A stretch of DNA of 64,000 nt from Lysobacter avium. GTDB lineage: Bacteria > Pseudomonadota > Gammaproteobacteria > Xanthomonadales > Xanthomonadaceae. Below, piece after piece: positions 28,775-35,041 of this stretch. The stretch lies in the NCBI RefSeq assembly GCF_015209745.1, contig NZ_CP063657.1, positions 372,001-436,000 on the forward strand, read 5' to 3'. Position 1 is the first letter of the stretch. Each line of letters starts with the position of its first letter. A model generated the notes under the pieces. The model ran no database searches. It worked only from the letters and a program-made list of their open reading frames with translations, and was not told the origin of the DNA. The position numbers were made by a program, and so were the translations under genes.

Positions 28775-28798
28775 GTGACGCATACACAGGAGAGGTCC

Positions 28799-29203
28799 GT
28801 GAGCGTCCCCGCCAACGAGGTTTTGAATCTCCAGTCCGACCAGACCCGCAAGGACCTGGCGCGCACGGTGGCGGCGCTGTTCGAAAAATGGGGACTCTCG
28901 GCTGAGGAGCAGTTGATCCTGCTCGGCATGAGTCCGGAAAGCCGGAAGGTCCTGCCGCAGTACCGTCGTGGTGAAAGAGCGCTGCCTAACGCGCCCGACA
29001 CGTTGGCCCGGGTCGGCTACCTGCTGGGCATCCACAAAGGCCTGCGCCTGCTTTTTCCGGAAAGCGAGGCCCTGCGGTTTGGCTGGGTGAAACTGCGCAA
29101 CCGGGTGCTGGAAGGCCACACGCCGCTGGAAGTGATGTTGACCGACGGCCTGCTGGGGGTCGCGCGCATCGCGCGCTTCATCGATTTCCAGCGGGGCCAG
29201 TAG
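28799..29203 (+). CDS. Xre/MbcA/ParS-type antitoxin
   Basis: A 134-residue antitoxin of the RES-Xre class. The N-terminal half (about 10-75) is a helix-turn-helix region with SPESRKVLPQYRRGER. The C-terminal half is the MbcA/ParS/Xre toxin-binding domain (LGIHKGLRLLFPESEALRFGWV, split at residues 82-103, and G-H-T-P-L-E-V-M near 112). I start at a GTG preceded by AGGAGAGG; another GTG eight codons upstream is possible. Its stop overlaps the toxin start by one base (TAGTG), so translation is coupled. Confidence 0.88.
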   Translation: MSVPANEVLNLQSDQTRKDLARTVAALFEKWGLSAEEQLILLGMSPESRKVLPQYRRGERALPNAPDTLARVGYLLGIHKGLRLLFPESEALRFGWVKLRNRVLEGHTPLEVMLTDGLLGVARIARFIDFQRGQ

Positions 29204-29907
29204 TGGAGGTTCTGGACACGCTGTCCCGCGTGGACGCGCAGCTGTTCCGGAACATCACTTCACTGCGACTCAGCGAAAATCTCTTCGATGATCTGGTGCC
29301 CGACCGGGCCGGCCAGGACGCGGCGATCGCGGCCGAGATGGCCGTGCGAAAGACCGCCCCGGGCGTGATCGAGCGCGGCCTGTATTACTCGCAGGCCATC
29401 GACTACCCCTTCGCCAGCGACCCGGTCGTAGGCTCGCGCTTTGGCGACGGCACGATCCGCGTCTGGTACGGCGCCTTCGACGACGCAACCGCGCGCGCGG
29501 AGACGTGCTGGCACGCGCTGCGCCAGGGCAACGACCTGATCGACCCGCCGGAAACCGTGTTCGTGCGCTACCGGGCGGTGTACACGGTGCGGGCGCGGGG
29601 GCTGTTTGCCGACCTTCGCGGCAAGGAGGTCGCCTTCCCCGAACTGGTGGGTGATGACTACGCGCCGACCCAGCCGATCGGCCGGTATGCCGCCAACCAG
29701 GGGCTGGCCGGGCTGGTCTATCCCTCGGCCCGTTGGCCCGAGGGCGAGTGCCTGGCCGCCTTCCGCGCCGTGCCGCTCTCCGACGCCGCGCTGGCGTACT
29801 ACCTGACCTACCGGATCGACCTGGATACGCAGACGGTCGCAATCGAGCGGACCCCCGGTGTGGTCGACCAGCGCCTGCACATCAGCGAGCTGCGGCGCTC
29901 ACGCTGA
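29203..29907 (+). CDS. RES-domain toxin
   Basis: A 234-residue RES protein. Characterised members (MbcT, ParT and relatives) are NAD+ phosphorylases or ADP-ribosyl-transferases that deplete NAD+ or modify host proteins. The RES landmarks are present: an Arg near the N terminus (LFRNITSLR), the GSRFGDGTIRVWYGAFDD core around residues 83-98 and A-T-A-R-A-E soon after, which carries the catalytic Glu. The start is GTG, overlapping the antitoxin stop. The gene ends one base before the stop of the converging P-type ATPase gene, which leaves no spacer. Confidence 0.88.
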   Translation: MEVLDTLSRVDAQLFRNITSLRLSENLFDDLVPDRAGQDAAIAAEMAVRKTAPGVIERGLYYSQAIDYPFASDPVVGSRFGDGTIRVWYGAFDDATARAETCWHALRQGNDLIDPPETVFVRYRAVYTVRARGLFADLRGKEVAFPELVGDDYAPTQPIGRYAANQGLAGLVYPSARWPEGECLAAFRAVPLSDAALAYYLTYRIDLDTQTVAIERTPGVVDQRLHISELRRSR

Positions 29908-31785
29908 TCAAGATCGCGAGGACACCAGCCGCCGATCGCTTCGCGCGTTACCCAGCGCTCGCGATGCGTTGATGATCGTCGCAAGGTCGACCACTTCCTG
30001 CAGCGCCGCGCCAAGGATCGCCGGCAGGAACCCGAACGCCGCGAACAACATCAGTCCGACGCTCAAGGCGATACCGAGCCAGATGCTCTGCAGCGCCACC
30101 TGCATGGTGCGCTGGGCGATCGCCATTGCCGTCGCGGTTTTCGACACGTCATCGACGGTGATGATCACATCGGCCGACTCGCTCGCCGCCGTCGCGCCCC
30201 GGGCGCCCATGGCGATGCCGACGTCGGCCACCGCAAGCACCGGCGCATCATTGACGCCGTCGCCGACCATGACCACCGGCCGCTCGCTGATCGCCTGGAC
30301 GATCCGGACCTTGTCTTCCGGCAGCAGTTCGGCCTGGATGTTGCCGATCCCGAGATCGCCGCCCACGTGGCGGGCCGTGGCGTCGGCGTCGCCGGTGAGC
30401 ATCAGGACGCGCTCGACGCCCAGCGACAGCAGCCGATCGATGGTGGAGCGGGCATTTCCCCGGACCCGGTCGCTGAGCAGGATCGTGCCGGCGAAGCGGC
30501 CATCGACGGCGACGTAGACCGCCAGCTCGCCGCTGGCAATCGACGCCGCGCGCGCCTCGGGTGCGAAGGACGCGACGAACGCCAGCTTGCCGACCACGAC
30601 TTCGCGCTGGTCGATGGTTGCGACGACGCCGTTGGTCGCCTCCTCGCGCGCCTCCGCGGCCTCGCGCGGGGTCAGGCCGCGCTCCTGCGCCGCTTCCACG
30701 ATCGCCGTGGCCAGCACGTGCGAGGAGTACTGTTCGGCCGAGGCGACGAGGGTGAAAAGCTCGTCCTGCTCGAAGTCGGCGGCGGGCTGCACCGCGACCA
30801 CGGTCGGGTCCCCGTAGGTGAGGGTACCGGTCTTGTCGAAGGCGACCGTGCGCGCGCGCGACAATTGCTCCAGCGTGCCACCGCCCTTGACGATGATGCC
30901 GTGCCGGGAGGCCCGGCTCATGCCGCCCATGAAGGCGACCGGGGCCGCGATCAGCAGTGGGCAGGGGGTCGCAACGACGAGCACCTCGGCAAATCGCACC
31001 GGGTCCCCGGACACCCACCAGGCGATCCCGGCAATCAGCAGCGATCCGAAGGTGAAGGGCACGGCGAAACGGTCCGCCAGCCGCACCAGCGGCGCCCGGC
31101 TCTCCGCGGCCTCCTCGACCAGCGCGACGATGCGCTGGTACTGGCTGTTGCTCGCCGCCGCCGTGGCCTCGATGACGACCGCAACCTCGCTGTTGAGCGA
31201 GCCGCTGAGCACGGCGGCCCCGCGGCCGCGCTCGACCGGAAGGCTCTCGCCGGTCAGCGATGACTCGTCGAAGCTGCCGCTCGCCGACACCAGCACCCCA
31301 TCCACCGGAACGACTTCCGACGGCCGCACCAGCAGGCGATCGCCAATGGCCACCTCCGATACCGGGACGTCCTCGACCTGACCATCCTCGCCCAGCATGC
31401 GGTGGGCATCGCGGGGCGCACGATCCAGCAGGGCGCCGAGCTCCCTGCGCGCGCGGCCGGCGGCGTACTCCTCCAGCGCCTCGCCGCCGGACAGCATCAG
31501 CACGATGACCAGACTGGCCCAGTATTCGCCGACCGACACCGTGGCAATGATCGCCATGATCGCCAGCACGTCGATGCCCATCCGCCCGGCCAGCAGGTTG
31601 CGCAGCATCCCTACGGCCTGCGACGCGGCGATGGCAAGCGCGAACGCGCTGATCAGCCAGCGGGCGACGTTGCGCTCGGCAAGGACGCCCTGCCCGAACA
31701 GCTCGATCGCACCGGCGATGATGCCGACCAGCAGGGTGAGGGCGACGATCGGATAGCGCCTGGTCAGGCTGGCGACTTTGTTCAT
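29908..31785 (-). CDS. Heavy-metal translocating P1B-type ATPase
   Basis: A 625-residue transition-metal pump. In order: two N-terminal helices, a pair of helices, the actuator motif TGES (178-181), the metal-site helix motif T-P-C (273-275) where Zn/Cd/Cu pumps have CPC, the phosphorylation site DKTGT (Asp317) and the hinge GDGVNDAP (about 515). There is no N-terminal HMA metal-binding domain and no Cys- or His-rich tail. TPC-type sites are reported in the P1B-5-like group (Fe, Ni or Co), but the metal here is unknown. I use the ATG; a TTG four codons upstream is possible. A PEP-mutase-like gene lies 45 bases upstream on the same strand. Confidence 0.9.
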   Translation of the reverse strand: MNKVASLTRRYPIVALTLLVGIIAGAIELFGQGVLAERNVARWLISAFALAIAASQAVGMLRNLLAGRMGIDVLAIMAIIATVSVGEYWASLVIVLMLSGGEALEEYAAGRARRELGALLDRAPRDAHRMLGEDGQVEDVPVSEVAIGDRLLVRPSEVVPVDGVLVSASGSFDESSLTGESLPVERGRGAAVLSGSLNSEVAVVIEATAAASNSQYQRIVALVEEAAESRAPLVRLADRFAVPFTFGSLLIAGIAWWVSGDPVRFAEVLVVATPCPLLIAAPVAFMGGMSRASRHGIIVKGGGTLEQLSRARTVAFDKTGTLTYGDPTVVAVQPAADFEQDELFTLVASAEQYSSHVLATAIVEAAQERGLTPREAAEAREEATNGVVATIDQREVVVGKLAFVASFAPEARAASIASGELAVYVAVDGRFAGTILLSDRVRGNARSTIDRLLSLGVERVLMLTGDADATARHVGGDLGIGNIQAELLPEDKVRIVQAISERPVVMVGDGVNDAPVLAVADVGIAMGARGATAASESADVIITVDDVSKTATAMAIAQRTMQVALQSIWLGIALSVGLMLFAAFGFLPAILGAALQEVVDLATIINASRALGNARSDRRLVSSRS

Positions 31786-31830
31786 GCTGTCGGTCAAGCT
31801 CCCAAGCCGCTCATTACGGCGTGTTCGGTT

Positions 31831-32694: not shown

Positions 32695-32970
32695 TCGCAC
32701 GGATCAAAGGCGGGGAATTGAAGAGGTATAGCGCCACGCGCCGGTGCCCGCGCTCGGGGCGCGGGATGTCCGGACATTTGGGCTGGGCGGGTCAGAGGAT
32801 ACCGAGTCTCGGTGGGCTATGCCCGCGCTCGCCTGAAGGTCGATCAAGCGGATATCGCTCAAGCTTCGCACGGGCAGGAGGATCCGTTTTGGGGGTCGCT
32901 TCGAATGCGACCTGAGGCTACTCATCGGTCCCTCTTTTCCATCGGGTTTTCGACCGACGCAGAACGGTGA
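32695..32970. other. 276-base intergenic region, no gene found
   Basis: Between the start of the PEP-mutase-like gene and the stop of the HEPN gene, both on the minus strand. It contains a CCCGCG/CGCGGG hairpin with a 7-base loop near 32748-32766 and stop codons in all frames often enough to exclude a sizeable gene. A promoter for the PEP-mutase-like gene is expected here, but no clear -35/-10 pair was seen. Confidence 0.5.
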
Positions 32971-33627
32971 CTAGAACTCCCTAACCAGCGGATAGGCAAC
33001 TCCCTCGAACTCCTTTGCCGGGTCATCAATCAGCAGGTCGATGATGATCGGCATGAGGGTCATGAGGATCGATGCACCATCCCGGACCTGGGCGCGGTTG
33101 GCGCCGCTGTTCCAGGTCGCGCCGCCATGGACGAGTTGGTTGCGCAGGACGTAGAGCCGATCCAGGACGATGGAGAGCACCACATCCGTCTGCCGTCCCA
33201 TCAGCGCCTTCATGGCGACCCGCTTGCTGGCGGCGAATTGGGTTTCCCAACGATCGCTGCTGTCGTGCTCGCGCATTGCCCGCCAATAGGGCTCGAACAC
33301 GAACCGGTTCTCGATCATCGTGCGGATGGGGCCAGTGAACTTCTGGAACGCCGCGTCCTGCAGGCGGCCTTCCTGATCATTCGCCAGCACTCTGCCAATG
33401 AAGGCGCGCGTCTGCTCACGCTCGCTTTGTTCGAAGCCGAAGTCGGCCGCATAGGCGGCATTCAATGAGATCCACAGAAAGATGAACTGCGCATCCAGGT
33501 CCGCCGTTTCCTGCTCGGCCCGCGCCAGCCAGCTGATCGCCCGATGGATCCGCACCCGCAGGTTCTCGGGCTGGTTATCCCTGACGTGTCGGTGTTTGGC
33601 CTTGAGCGCTTCTGCGTTGAACGTCAT
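32971..33627 (-). CDS. HEPN-domain protein of unknown function
   Basis: A 218-residue, mostly helical protein. Near residue 162 it has R-N-Q-L-V-H, the R-x4-H motif of HEPN domains, which in many toxin, defence and CRISPR proteins forms a metal-independent RNase site; H-G-G-A-T follows. The upstream part contains FIFLWISLNAAYA, a pattern common in RiboL-PSP/Apea-like HEPN proteins. AGGGGGAA lies 5 bases before the ATG; a 19-codon upstream extension is rejected. It is divergent from a VWA-HD gene pair whose first gene uses an almost identical ribosome site. RNase activity is a family-based possibility, not shown. Confidence 0.72.
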   Translation of the reverse strand: MTFNAEALKAKHRHVRDNQPENLRVRIHRAISWLARAEQETADLDAQFIFLWISLNAAYAADFGFEQSEREQTRAFIGRVLANDQEGRLQDAAFQKFTGPIRTMIENRFVFEPYWRAMREHDSSDRWETQFAASKRVAMKALMGRQTDVVLSIVLDRLYVLRNQLVHGGATWNSGANRAQVRDGASILMTLMPIIIDLLIDDPAKEFEGVAYPLVREF

Positions 33628-33712
33628 GACATTTCCCCCTGAACGTGTCGCAATGTGTGAGACGTCTTTGCTGCATCGTCGCACCTGATGTCAACCACAG
33701 GGGGAGAGTGAG

Positions 33713-34357
33713 ATGAGCGACCGCAGCCATATCAGCGTGATCCTGGACCGCACCGGATCCATGCAGGACATTCGCGACGACGTCGTGGGGGGATTCAATG
33801 CGTTCCTCGCGGCTCAGAAAGCCAGCCCCGATCCGGCGACTTTCACCTTGGTGCAATTCGACTCGCAGGATCCCTACGAGGTGCTGCACCGCGGCGTCGG
33901 CATTTCCGATGTGCCGCCGCTGACCCTGGCCCAGTACGTACCTCGGGGCGCAACGCCGCTCTACGACGCCATGGGGCAGGGCATCCTCGAGCTGGAGGCG
34001 GGCTTGGCGGGGATGGCTGACGACGAGCGGCCCAACAAAGTCATCTTCGTGGTGGTCACTGACGGGCAGGAGAATGCCAGCCGCGAGTTTGATCGGGCCC
34101 GGTTGTCGAAGTTGATCGCAGCAAAGAAAAAGATTGGGTGGGATTTTGTTTTCCTCAGCGCTGATCTTGAAGCATTCGAAGATGCCGACCGTATGGGGGT
34201 GGAACTCTCGTCCCGGCTGATGTTCAACAAGTCCAAGCAGGGCAACGATCGGGCCTGGTCAGCGGCCTCGGCGAGGATTCTCGATCGGCGGTCAGGCGTT
34301 TCGGCGTGTGTGGCTTTCGATGAGGTGGATCGGAAAGCCCAGGACAATCCGGACTAG
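33713..34357 (+). CDS. von Willebrand factor A domain protein
   Basis: A 214-residue stand-alone VWA protein, cytoplasmic (no signal or membrane helix). The metal-ion-dependent adhesion site is readable: DRTGSM (residues 12-17), A-T-P-L-Y-D-A (about 82-88) and V-V-T-D-G-Q-E-N (about 113-120). VWA proteins mediate protein-protein contacts, and similar small ones occur in phage and defence regions. GGGGAG lies 6 bases upstream. A 6-base gap separates it from the HD-domain gene, so the two form an operon. Its function in this trio is unknown. Confidence 0.82.
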   Translation: MSDRSHISVILDRTGSMQDIRDDVVGGFNAFLAAQKASPDPATFTLVQFDSQDPYEVLHRGVGISDVPPLTLAQYVPRGATPLYDAMGQGILELEAGLAGMADDERPNKVIFVVVTDGQENASREFDRARLSKLIAAKKKIGWDFVFLSADLEAFEDADRMGVELSSRLMFNKSKQGNDRAWSAASARILDRRSGVSACVAFDEVDRKAQDNPD

Positions 34358-34363
34358 CAGCTG

Positions 34364-34876
34364 ATGAAGCACGATCGGGCCGTGTCGCCGGACCTGCTGC
34401 GCGAGATCCGCAGCCAATTCCGGCTCGACTGGACTGGACACCATGGCTTCCCGCACTGGGCGCGCGTCTATCGCCATGGCCTCTACGTTGGCCGGGCGGT
34501 GGGCGCGGATTTGCGGGTCGTCGAGTTGTTCGCGTTCCTGCATGACTCGCAGCGGGAGAACGAGTACACCGATCCCGAACACGGTTCCCGCGCGGCCGAC
34601 TATGCCTGTTGGCTTCGATCCAAAGGAAGGTTTGAGCTTGATGCGCCGGCTCTCGATTTGCTGGTGGCCGCCTGCCAGGGGCACAGCGACGGGCACCAAC
34701 TGGCAGATCCGACCGTCATGGCGTGCTGGGACGCGGACAGGCTGGACCTGGGGAGGGTGGGGATCCGCCCGGACCCGCGCCGCCTGTGCACTGCTCCCGC
34801 CCGTGATCCCGCTTACCTGGCGCGTGCGTGGCGTCGTGGCGTGGCGCACCGGGACCGCATCCACCGGATGGCGCAC
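34364..34876 (+). CDS. HD-domain protein, putative phosphohydrolase
   Basis: About 171 residues, ending in HRMAH. A metal-site pattern of the HD superfamily can be read: H38, H60-D61 (FLHDSQREN), H73, and a histidine-rich stretch G-H-S-D-G-H (106-111) followed by D-A-D-R (124-127). E-N-E-Y-T-D-P-E-H-G around the HD pair is typical of a family of small HD hydrolases I cannot name. HD proteins hydrolyse phosphomonoesters, nucleotides or cyclic nucleotides. It follows the VWA gene after 6 bases with no clear ribosome site, suggesting translational coupling. A tRNA-Met terminator on the other strand follows immediately. Confidence 0.75.
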
Positions 34877-34899
34877 TAGCGTCTCCGATCATCGCCCAC

Positions 34900-34964: not shown

Positions 34965-35041
34965 TGGTGGCTATGGGTGGACTCGAACCACCGACCCCAG
35001 CATTATGAGTGCTGTGCTCTAACCGGCTGAGCTACATAGCC
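34965..35041 (-). tRNA. tRNA-Met (anticodon CAT, elongator)
   Basis: Minus-strand cloverleaf of 77 bases including CCA. The acceptor GGCTATG pairs with CATAGCC, the D arm contains AGCTCAGCCGGTTAGAGC, the anticodon loop is CTCATAA, and the T arm contains GGTTCGAGTCC. The body matches the elongator tRNA-Met of enterobacteria, and the paired first acceptor base distinguishes it from the initiator. tRNA-Ile2 also has a CAT anticodon before modification; the overall sequence favours Met. Confidence 0.93.

Follow-up and report, generated by a model that had tools for sequence, protein, structure and literature searches.

A HEPN-like, VWA and HD gene trio in Lysobacter avium and a palindrome that it has in common with repair-type genes

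The stretch of Lysobacter avium DNA analysed here (the window, 64 kb) contains a compact group of three genes that encode a HEPN-like protein, a stand-alone VWA protein and a small HD-superfamily protein (Table 1). A preliminary description of the locus, made from the sequence alone, had reported three open reading frames in a divergent layout, with 85 bases between the HEPN and VWA starts and the sequence AGGGGGA upstream of both, and we find exactly this arrangement. Its gene coordinates also hold, except that the end given for the group (34876) omits the HD stop codon and should read 34879. For the HEPN-like gene, a GTG at 33684 is a possible alternative, longer start. Between the divergent genes lies a palindromic operator-like site whose distance to the start codon is 19 bp for HEPN and 49 bp for VWA; it is the sole copy of this palindrome within one mismatch in the window. 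Neighbouring genes encode a PEP-mutase-family protein (PF13714), an E1-E2 ATPase, an Xre-RES pair and RppH. The toxin-antitoxin pair and the tRNA that had been noted on either side of the group are both real: the former is the Xre-RES pair, recognized by Pfam about 3.1-4.2 kb to the left of the trio, and the latter is a tRNA-Met.

Table 1. Features of the locus, in window coordinates
Feature	Coordinates	Strand	Remarks
Xre-RES toxin-antitoxin pair	28775-29907		Pfam: Xre PF09722, E 3.6e-6; RES PF08808, E 6.3e-22
Block without nucleotide match in sister genome G457	32712-34893	.	holds exactly the HEPN, VWA and HD genes
HEPN-like predicted RNase, 218 aa	32971-33627	-	ATG at 33627; motif R162-N163-x3-H167
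Palindromic operator-like site GTCGCA-N5-TGAGAC	33647-33663	.	one mismatch relative to GTCTCA-N5-TGAGAC
Stand-alone VWA protein, 214 aa	33713-34357	+	MIDAS residues D12, T14, S16, T81, D117
Small HD-superfamily hydrolase, 171 aa	34364-34879	+	residues H31, H60-D61, D123/D125
tRNA-Met (CAT)	34965-35041	-	RppH adjoins in the genus genomes compared; other side varies

Homologue totals (5076 for HEPN, 2915 for VWA and 6854 for HD) and a comparison with the genus relative G473, in which protein identity (95-97%) exceeds DNA identity (92-94%), indicate that the three reading frames are not chance occurrences. All three are also selected by our own codon-usage gene caller.

The HEPN-like protein carries an intact R-x4-H motif (R162-N-Q-L-V-H167), as originally described. 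In an alignment of 55 members that was restricted to full-length copies of 185-300 aa and extends down to 37% identity, with a few members drawn from a scan whose pattern included LRNQ, R162 and H167 are present in 55/55 and N163 in 54/55. G169, which follows H167-G168, is invariant in a 50-row alignment and at least 95% conserved in the larger family alignment. The accessible part of PMC3710099 places the motif of HEPN proteins at the end of a helix and the start of the following loop. A structure prediction, which the preliminary description had proposed as a check, gives a model (pLDDT 92) in which helix 147-167 ends at H167 and the next helix spans 175-200. The family thus combines a conserved R-x4-6-H with a polar residue after the arginine, and in the predicted model the motif closes a helix with the loop beginning after it, as in the HEPN superfamily. 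No HEPN model in Pfam or NCBIfam matched the window protein, and fold searches of the PDB with its model returned chance-level rows only and no known HEPN. Ten further proteins were checked, the tenth being an unrelated neighbour, and one of the nine relatives, the distant member L211, matched PF18735 (HEPN_RiboL-PSP) below Pfam's cut-off (E 3e-5, score 24.5 against 28.4). The original HEPN assignment is supported by motif and helix position, and the window protein, of which neither sequence nor model matched a known HEPN, is probably a member of the superfamily. Some copies in other genomes contain internal stops (L019, G395, G378, G051 and the fragments in G427 and G475); at L019, the adjacent VWA frame is open. 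No phage record matched the HEPN protein at E 1e-3.

Searches of the three window proteins against Pfam, NCBIfam, PADLOC and PHROGs gave no match above cut-off save that of VWA to phrog_7371, a family of unknown function (E 7.6e-51), which accompanies below-cut-off profile matches for the same protein. PADLOC-DB 2.0.0, a collection of described anti-phage systems, yielded no model at E<=1 for any of HEPN, VWA or HD. The metal site of the VWA family (MIDAS; D-x-[ST]-x-S, T, D) is present, with T81 and D117 in 62/62 members and D12 and S16 in 55/62, the remaining seven being gaps; since the scan patterns contain D12-S16 and T81, only the conservation of D117 is unbiased. In the HD family, H31, H60, D61, D123 and D125 occur in 48/48 members, which gives the H...HD...D signature of the superfamily and agrees with the motif first proposed. 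The patterns that retrieved many of these 48 members cover H31 and D123-R126, leaving H60, D61 and H107 as the bias-free positions. The protein also conforms to the HD fold. The HD family is frequent on viral contigs (97 confirmed stretches), where HEPN (5) and VWA (7) are rare. Many of these contigs are short, and their HD proteins are about 47-50% identical (L113-L134).

We surveyed the three families in samples of genomes from the order (121 genomes), class (203) and family (198). At threshold, the order sample contains HEPN in 11 genomes, VWA in 1 and HD in 7, with the window's own HD alone being strong and the other six scoring 26-33 bits; the class sample contains HEPN in 10, VWA in 2 and HD in 6 (3 strong); and the family sample contains HEPN in 21 (two of them fragments), VWA in 11 and HD in 7. 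HEPN mostly occurs without VWA or HD, and 13 of the 21 family-sample HEPN genomes (a total that includes the two fragments) have no VWA. Conversely, 8 of the 11 genomes with VWA also have HEPN (Fisher p 5.5e-7, with no correction for phylogeny), and in 6 of these 8 the two genes lie within 2 kb of each other, across three genera and two layouts: divergent in G000, G473, G488 and G434, and on one strand about 1 kb apart in G328 and G459. The remaining two have the genes about 213 kb apart (G454) or on separate contigs (G349). HD accompanies HEPN and/or VWA in 5 of the 7 HD genomes (G000, G473, G488, G328 and G460); in G395 a partial HD is distant from its HEPN, and in G467 HD stands alone. G179, a genome of another family in the class sample, has HD directly after HEPN with 17 bp between the matches. 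HD is joined to HEPN and/or VWA in four layouts.

Linkage of HEPN and VWA recurs in five lineages, namely the window's genus, L018, L019, L024 (= G434) and the genus of G328/G459. (Locus and genome handles overlap and apparently denote the same genomes: L013 = G473, L014 = G488, L017 = G460, L020 = G459, L022 = G328, L024 = G434.) A VWA scan of named genomes found HEPN at 7 and HD at 4 of the best 80 of 150 loci. Across 87 VWA loci no neighbour cluster other than VWA itself occurs in more than 9, and beyond the Lysobacter family no gene accompanies VWA constantly. From the three samples and the VWA scan we conclude that the association is real but loose and that the trio is no fixed system; the family-sample counts reject an obligate one. 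The preliminary description had treated the three genes as a possible unit and had held that finding them apart in relatives would count against this. Co-occurrence and linkage in varied orders bear out part of that proposal, while the many genomes in which the genes are separate go against it. At two loci from two genera (L020 and L024), recC follows VWA at a distance of about 60-120 bp; it was assigned by Pfam in L024 and by similarity in L020. L266 has a RecC-like gene three genes away from HEPN. A gene for a metallophosphoesterase, which may replace HD, begins within 10 bp of the end of HEPN in L185, follows VWA in L019 and is three genes away from HEPN in L196.

Comparison with close relatives shows that a sister genome lacks the trio as a block. 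In G457, the closest genus genome compared (96.1% over 3.5 kb), the order of the neighbouring genes is preserved, and 111 bp stand in place of the 2182 bp that hold the trio in the window, although on visual inspection the match on the left does not fade until about 32811. The trio is present in Lysobacter sp. A03 and L. antarcticus at 92-94% DNA identity, and in G473 and at the A03 locus (90-91% to the window) its identity resembles that of the flanks. Since G457 is the closest genome and yet these more distant ones have the trio, loss of the whole block in G457 is the simplest account, and gain in the window is less simple. The Xre-RES pair was considered as a part of the trio and rejected: G457 has the pair without the trio, and L013 and L014, which keep the neighbouring P-type ATPase, carry the trio but no such pair at this position (the compared window segment being 28775-31797). 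On the side opposite RppH, the tRNA-Met has different surroundings in the six other genus genomes compared. Two of these have nearby what we take, from GSGKS and DEAH features, to be a type I restriction-like protein, and one has what is presumably a lexA2-imuAB-dnaE2-like set. In another genus, HEPN alone adjoins the same tRNA-Met/RppH (L264 and L265). We rejected the idea that the tRNA-Met is a site served by an integrase of its own, there being no integrase among the called genes from PEP-mutase to RppH.

We compared the surroundings of HEPN with those of other places in the same genomes. The 144 proteins encoded within two genes on each side of 37 chromosomal HEPN loci matched 122 PADLOC models at 1e-8, against 13 for 124 control proteins from 31 regions (for 31 of the 37 loci) taken near one fixed, non-random place per genome; these counts are of models, several of which can match one protein. 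Among the 25 Pfam families listed of the 153 found beside HEPN are WYL (4) and DUF2779, GmrSD_N, NERD, dynamin and metallophosphoesterase (2 each), none of which appears in the control list, which gives 25 of 201 families and includes every control family with two or more members. The 38 VWA-only loci, mostly from other phyla, gave 75 PADLOC models for 142 proteins, so VWA too may sit in defence-rich regions and the enrichment need not be specific to HEPN. The idea of a conflict or stress module, raised in the preliminary description, agrees with the defence-rich surroundings of HEPN, but these surround no fixed three-part system.

HEPN also matches 24 plasmid records, with at least 80% of the protein covered in 20 of them, and 14 of the 24 are predicted to be conjugative. 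Of 14 plasmid regions, one of which is unannotated, 5 have an annotated WYL gene, 5 a TM0106 RecB-like nuclease and 3 DUF3883. HEPN, WYL and the TM0106 RecB-like nuclease form a recurrent set that was met on plasmids of alphaproteobacteria and on one viral contig (L208, L209, L210, L213, L214 and L100). A DUF2779 protein adjoins HEPN in L188, L189 and L195, by Pfam in L188 and L195 and by similarity in L189. WYL genes are found near many HEPN loci, and none lies beside the window trio.

The palindrome in the window, which the preliminary description did not mention, is also found in related HEPN-VWA spacers. Allowing two mismatches to GTCTCA-N5-TGAGAC, it lies upstream of 16/96 VWA genes (13 within one mismatch) and 9/58 HEPN genes (7 within one mismatch), being absent from the other 49, and upstream of 0/58 HD genes; among 3309 other genes it precedes 31 (13 within one mismatch), and for some of them the same site also precedes a divergent VWA. 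All of the 12 best loci of the VWA scan (L013-L024) have the palindrome before VWA whether or not HEPN is present, 11 of them within one mismatch and L023 at two; the L014 site came from a single one of the palindrome searches. At L022, HEPN and VWA are apart and each has its own palindrome. VWA genes with the palindrome also occur where HEPN was not found (L017, L021 and L073, and likewise L015 and L016, where contig ends are nearby), and the site therefore tracks VWA more than HEPN.

Sites of this kind are not confined to the trio. In 11 genomes, namely G457 and all but one (G349) of the 11 family-sample genomes with VWA, we found 64 sites within one mismatch, against 4 for the reversed pattern. 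The VWA palindrome has two mismatches in G454 and G470, and the VWA gene of G349 has none at two mismatches. We viewed 39 of the 64 sites in context, taking genes that start within 260 bp and grouping them by clustering. In 8 genomes the palindrome precedes the gene of a large helicase, at 22-41 bp from its start, although the G460 copy may be a paralogue. A radical-SAM-like gene follows it in 4 genomes (21-22 bp), a dnaB-like one in 4 (82-127 bp) and an mraZ-like one in 2 (232 bp). VWA follows it in 5 and HEPN in 2, numbers that are low because only part of their loci entered this table. Single cases include RecC-like, lexA2-like (G457, 22 bp), umuD-like, uvrB-like, Cas3-like and WYL genes. 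Several sites precede genes without an evident repair link (pilin-like, membrane or lipoprotein, and, in 2, response-regulator-like), and a few have no convincing gene nearby. Most of these gene names are our own assignments from sequence features, RecC (L024) alone being confirmed by Pfam; the gene 54 bp after the palindrome in G459 (L311), for example, is presumably Cas3-like. Taken together, the genes after the palindrome read as a DNA-repair regulon. A palindrome common to HEPN/VWA and repair-type genes is new here.

Two candidate regulators lose ground on closer inspection. In the lexA2-like promoter (L331), the palindrome lies beside a different TACTA/TAGTA repeat, and a second lexA2-like gene (L251) has no palindrome at three mismatches, which weakens the palindrome as a lexA2 box. 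A second LexA nonetheless stays a candidate, since Xanthomonas axonopodis has two LexA regulons with different binding sequences, according to the excerpt of PMC9578287 consulted. As a target of the WYL genes near HEPN, the palindrome is weakened in turn, with only 1 of the 25 WYL hits listed (L266) having it upstream within two mismatches.

The block and the presence of its palindrome before apparent repair genes suggest a damage-triggered defence or shutdown module. The account we tentatively prefer, while placing it somewhat short of probable, is that the trio is an accessory module of the Lysobacter group in which a HEPN RNase is induced by damage or phage and acts with VWA and HD partners. 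Such a module would often be gained or lost within the group. HEPN would be its effector, a metal-independent endoribonuclease, and would stand with the divergent VWA-HD operon under one 17-bp palindromic operator. An unnamed regulator would bind this operator and also control the helicase, radical-SAM-like, dnaB-like, recC-like and lexA2-like genes; DNA damage, or a phage that breaks or exposes DNA, would cause it to induce HEPN and VWA-HD together. Cleavage of RNA by HEPN would then slow or stop the cell. VWA could use its metal site to hold HEPN or a partner in repair, serving as an adaptor, and HD might hydrolyse a nucleotide or phosphodiester product and so limit or end the response. This account is weakened by the 49/58 HEPN upstream regions without the palindrome, the palindromes before VWA where HEPN was not found, the lack of a site of HD's own, the mostly partnerless state of HEPN, its missing fold match and the stops in some copies, as well as by the restriction of context to 39/64 sites, several of which precede no repair-linked or no clear gene, the repair-gene names taken mostly from sequence features and the 75 PADLOC models at VWA-only loci. 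A broader formulation, which we consider doubtful, is that GTCTCA-N5-TGAGAC marks an undescribed Xanthomonadaceae damage regulon, perhaps distinct from the LexA box, that couples what we take to be repair genes (helicase, radical-SAM-like, recC-like, dnaB-like, lexA2-like and, in one genome, Cas3-like) to HEPN, VWA and HD, with the trio as its damage-triggered RNA shut-off arm.

Other explanations divide the same evidence differently. HEPN could be a self-contained mobile defence effector with many partners, VWA and HD having reached its side by drift in a variable spot and having no function in common with it. The diversity of its neighbours (WYL regulator, TM0106 nuclease, DUF2779, GmrSD, metallophosphoesterase), the plasmid matches, the HEPN genomes without VWA and the lone HEPN by the tRNA-Met/RppH of L264 and L265 all fit this idea, but the recurrence of HEPN-VWA linkage in five lineages and two layouts, and the palindromes kept by both genes at L022 where they are apart, do not, and we regard it as somewhat unlikely. 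Less likely again is a housekeeping DNA-repair or stress checkpoint rather than an anti-phage function, in which VWA, with HEPN if present, would serve a repair regulon, for example beside recBCD. Here VWA's position just before recC in L020 and L024 and the palindromes before RecC-like, helicase, dnaB-like and G457 lexA2-like genes count in favour, and the regulator may be one of the two LexA proteins (compare the available part of PMC9578287); a housekeeping role sits poorly with patchy presence (VWA 11/198, HEPN 21/198), the defence-type neighbours of HEPN and the lexA2-like gene L251 without the palindrome. We think it very improbable that the genes form a toxin-antitoxin pair, with HEPN as toxin and VWA or HD as antitoxin or modifier in the manner of HEPN-MNT. 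Small adjacent genes and the operon-like HEPN-HD pair of G179 would suit such a pair, but HEPN often has neither partner nearby and so seems not to need them, the window holds no nucleotidyltransferase partner, and no tyrosine stands two residues after H167.

HEPN effector modules are already known, and the regulon is possibly new. A large HEPN-like family, whose tested members fall below Pfam and PADLOC cut-offs, lies among defence genes and is also carried by conjugative plasmids; its members in the Lysobacter group stand under a palindrome common to repair-type genes. If the account we prefer is correct, RNase shut-off would be coupled to the response to damage by a logic other than the usual toxin-antitoxin one. 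The 17-bp site offers a handle for finding the regulator. Titles and the opening parts of abstracts in the open-access literature retrieved for HEPN with VWA, WYL, DUF2779 or damage, and for Xanthomonas LexA, mention neither the trio nor the palindrome.

The nearest known proteins are the HEPN superfamily RNases, which share with the window protein the R-x4-H motif, a polar residue after the arginine, the position at a helix end before a loop and an all-helical architecture, and from which it differs in matching no HEPN model (the nearest in Pfam being PF18735) and no PDB fold. HEPN-MNT systems (HepT-MntA) likewise place a small enzyme gene beside a small HEPN RNase. The HepT motif is R-x4-H-x-Y, whereas the window protein has H167-G168-G169 and no tyrosine two residues after H167. 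Its partners are VWA and HD, and the window neighbours (VWA, HD and the PEP-mutase-family gene) include no adjacent MNT nucleotidyltransferase. The HD protein differs from YpgQ/2pq7-type small HD hydrolases in being shorter, in forming a separate subfamily and in occurring on many viral contigs. WYL regulators are found in phage-defence islands, as the consulted part of PMC9122601 reports, and the HEPN family resembles these islands in its defence-rich surroundings, some with a WYL gene, whereas the window trio has no WYL neighbour. WYL-domain proteins also govern SOS-independent damage regulons, DriD and PafBC being examples in the portions of PMC12340889 and PMC11804915 at hand; the DriD regulon includes recJ, dnaG and the nuclease gene bapE and has the consensus ATACGAC-N7-GTCGTAT (same portion of PMC12340889). 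That consensus differs from GTCTCA-N5-TGAGAC (GTCGCA-N5-TGAGAC in the window). As far as these excerpts describe the DriD and PafBC regulons, the likeness lies in a palindrome that precedes repair and replication genes together with a death effector, and in the WYL genes near many HEPN loci.
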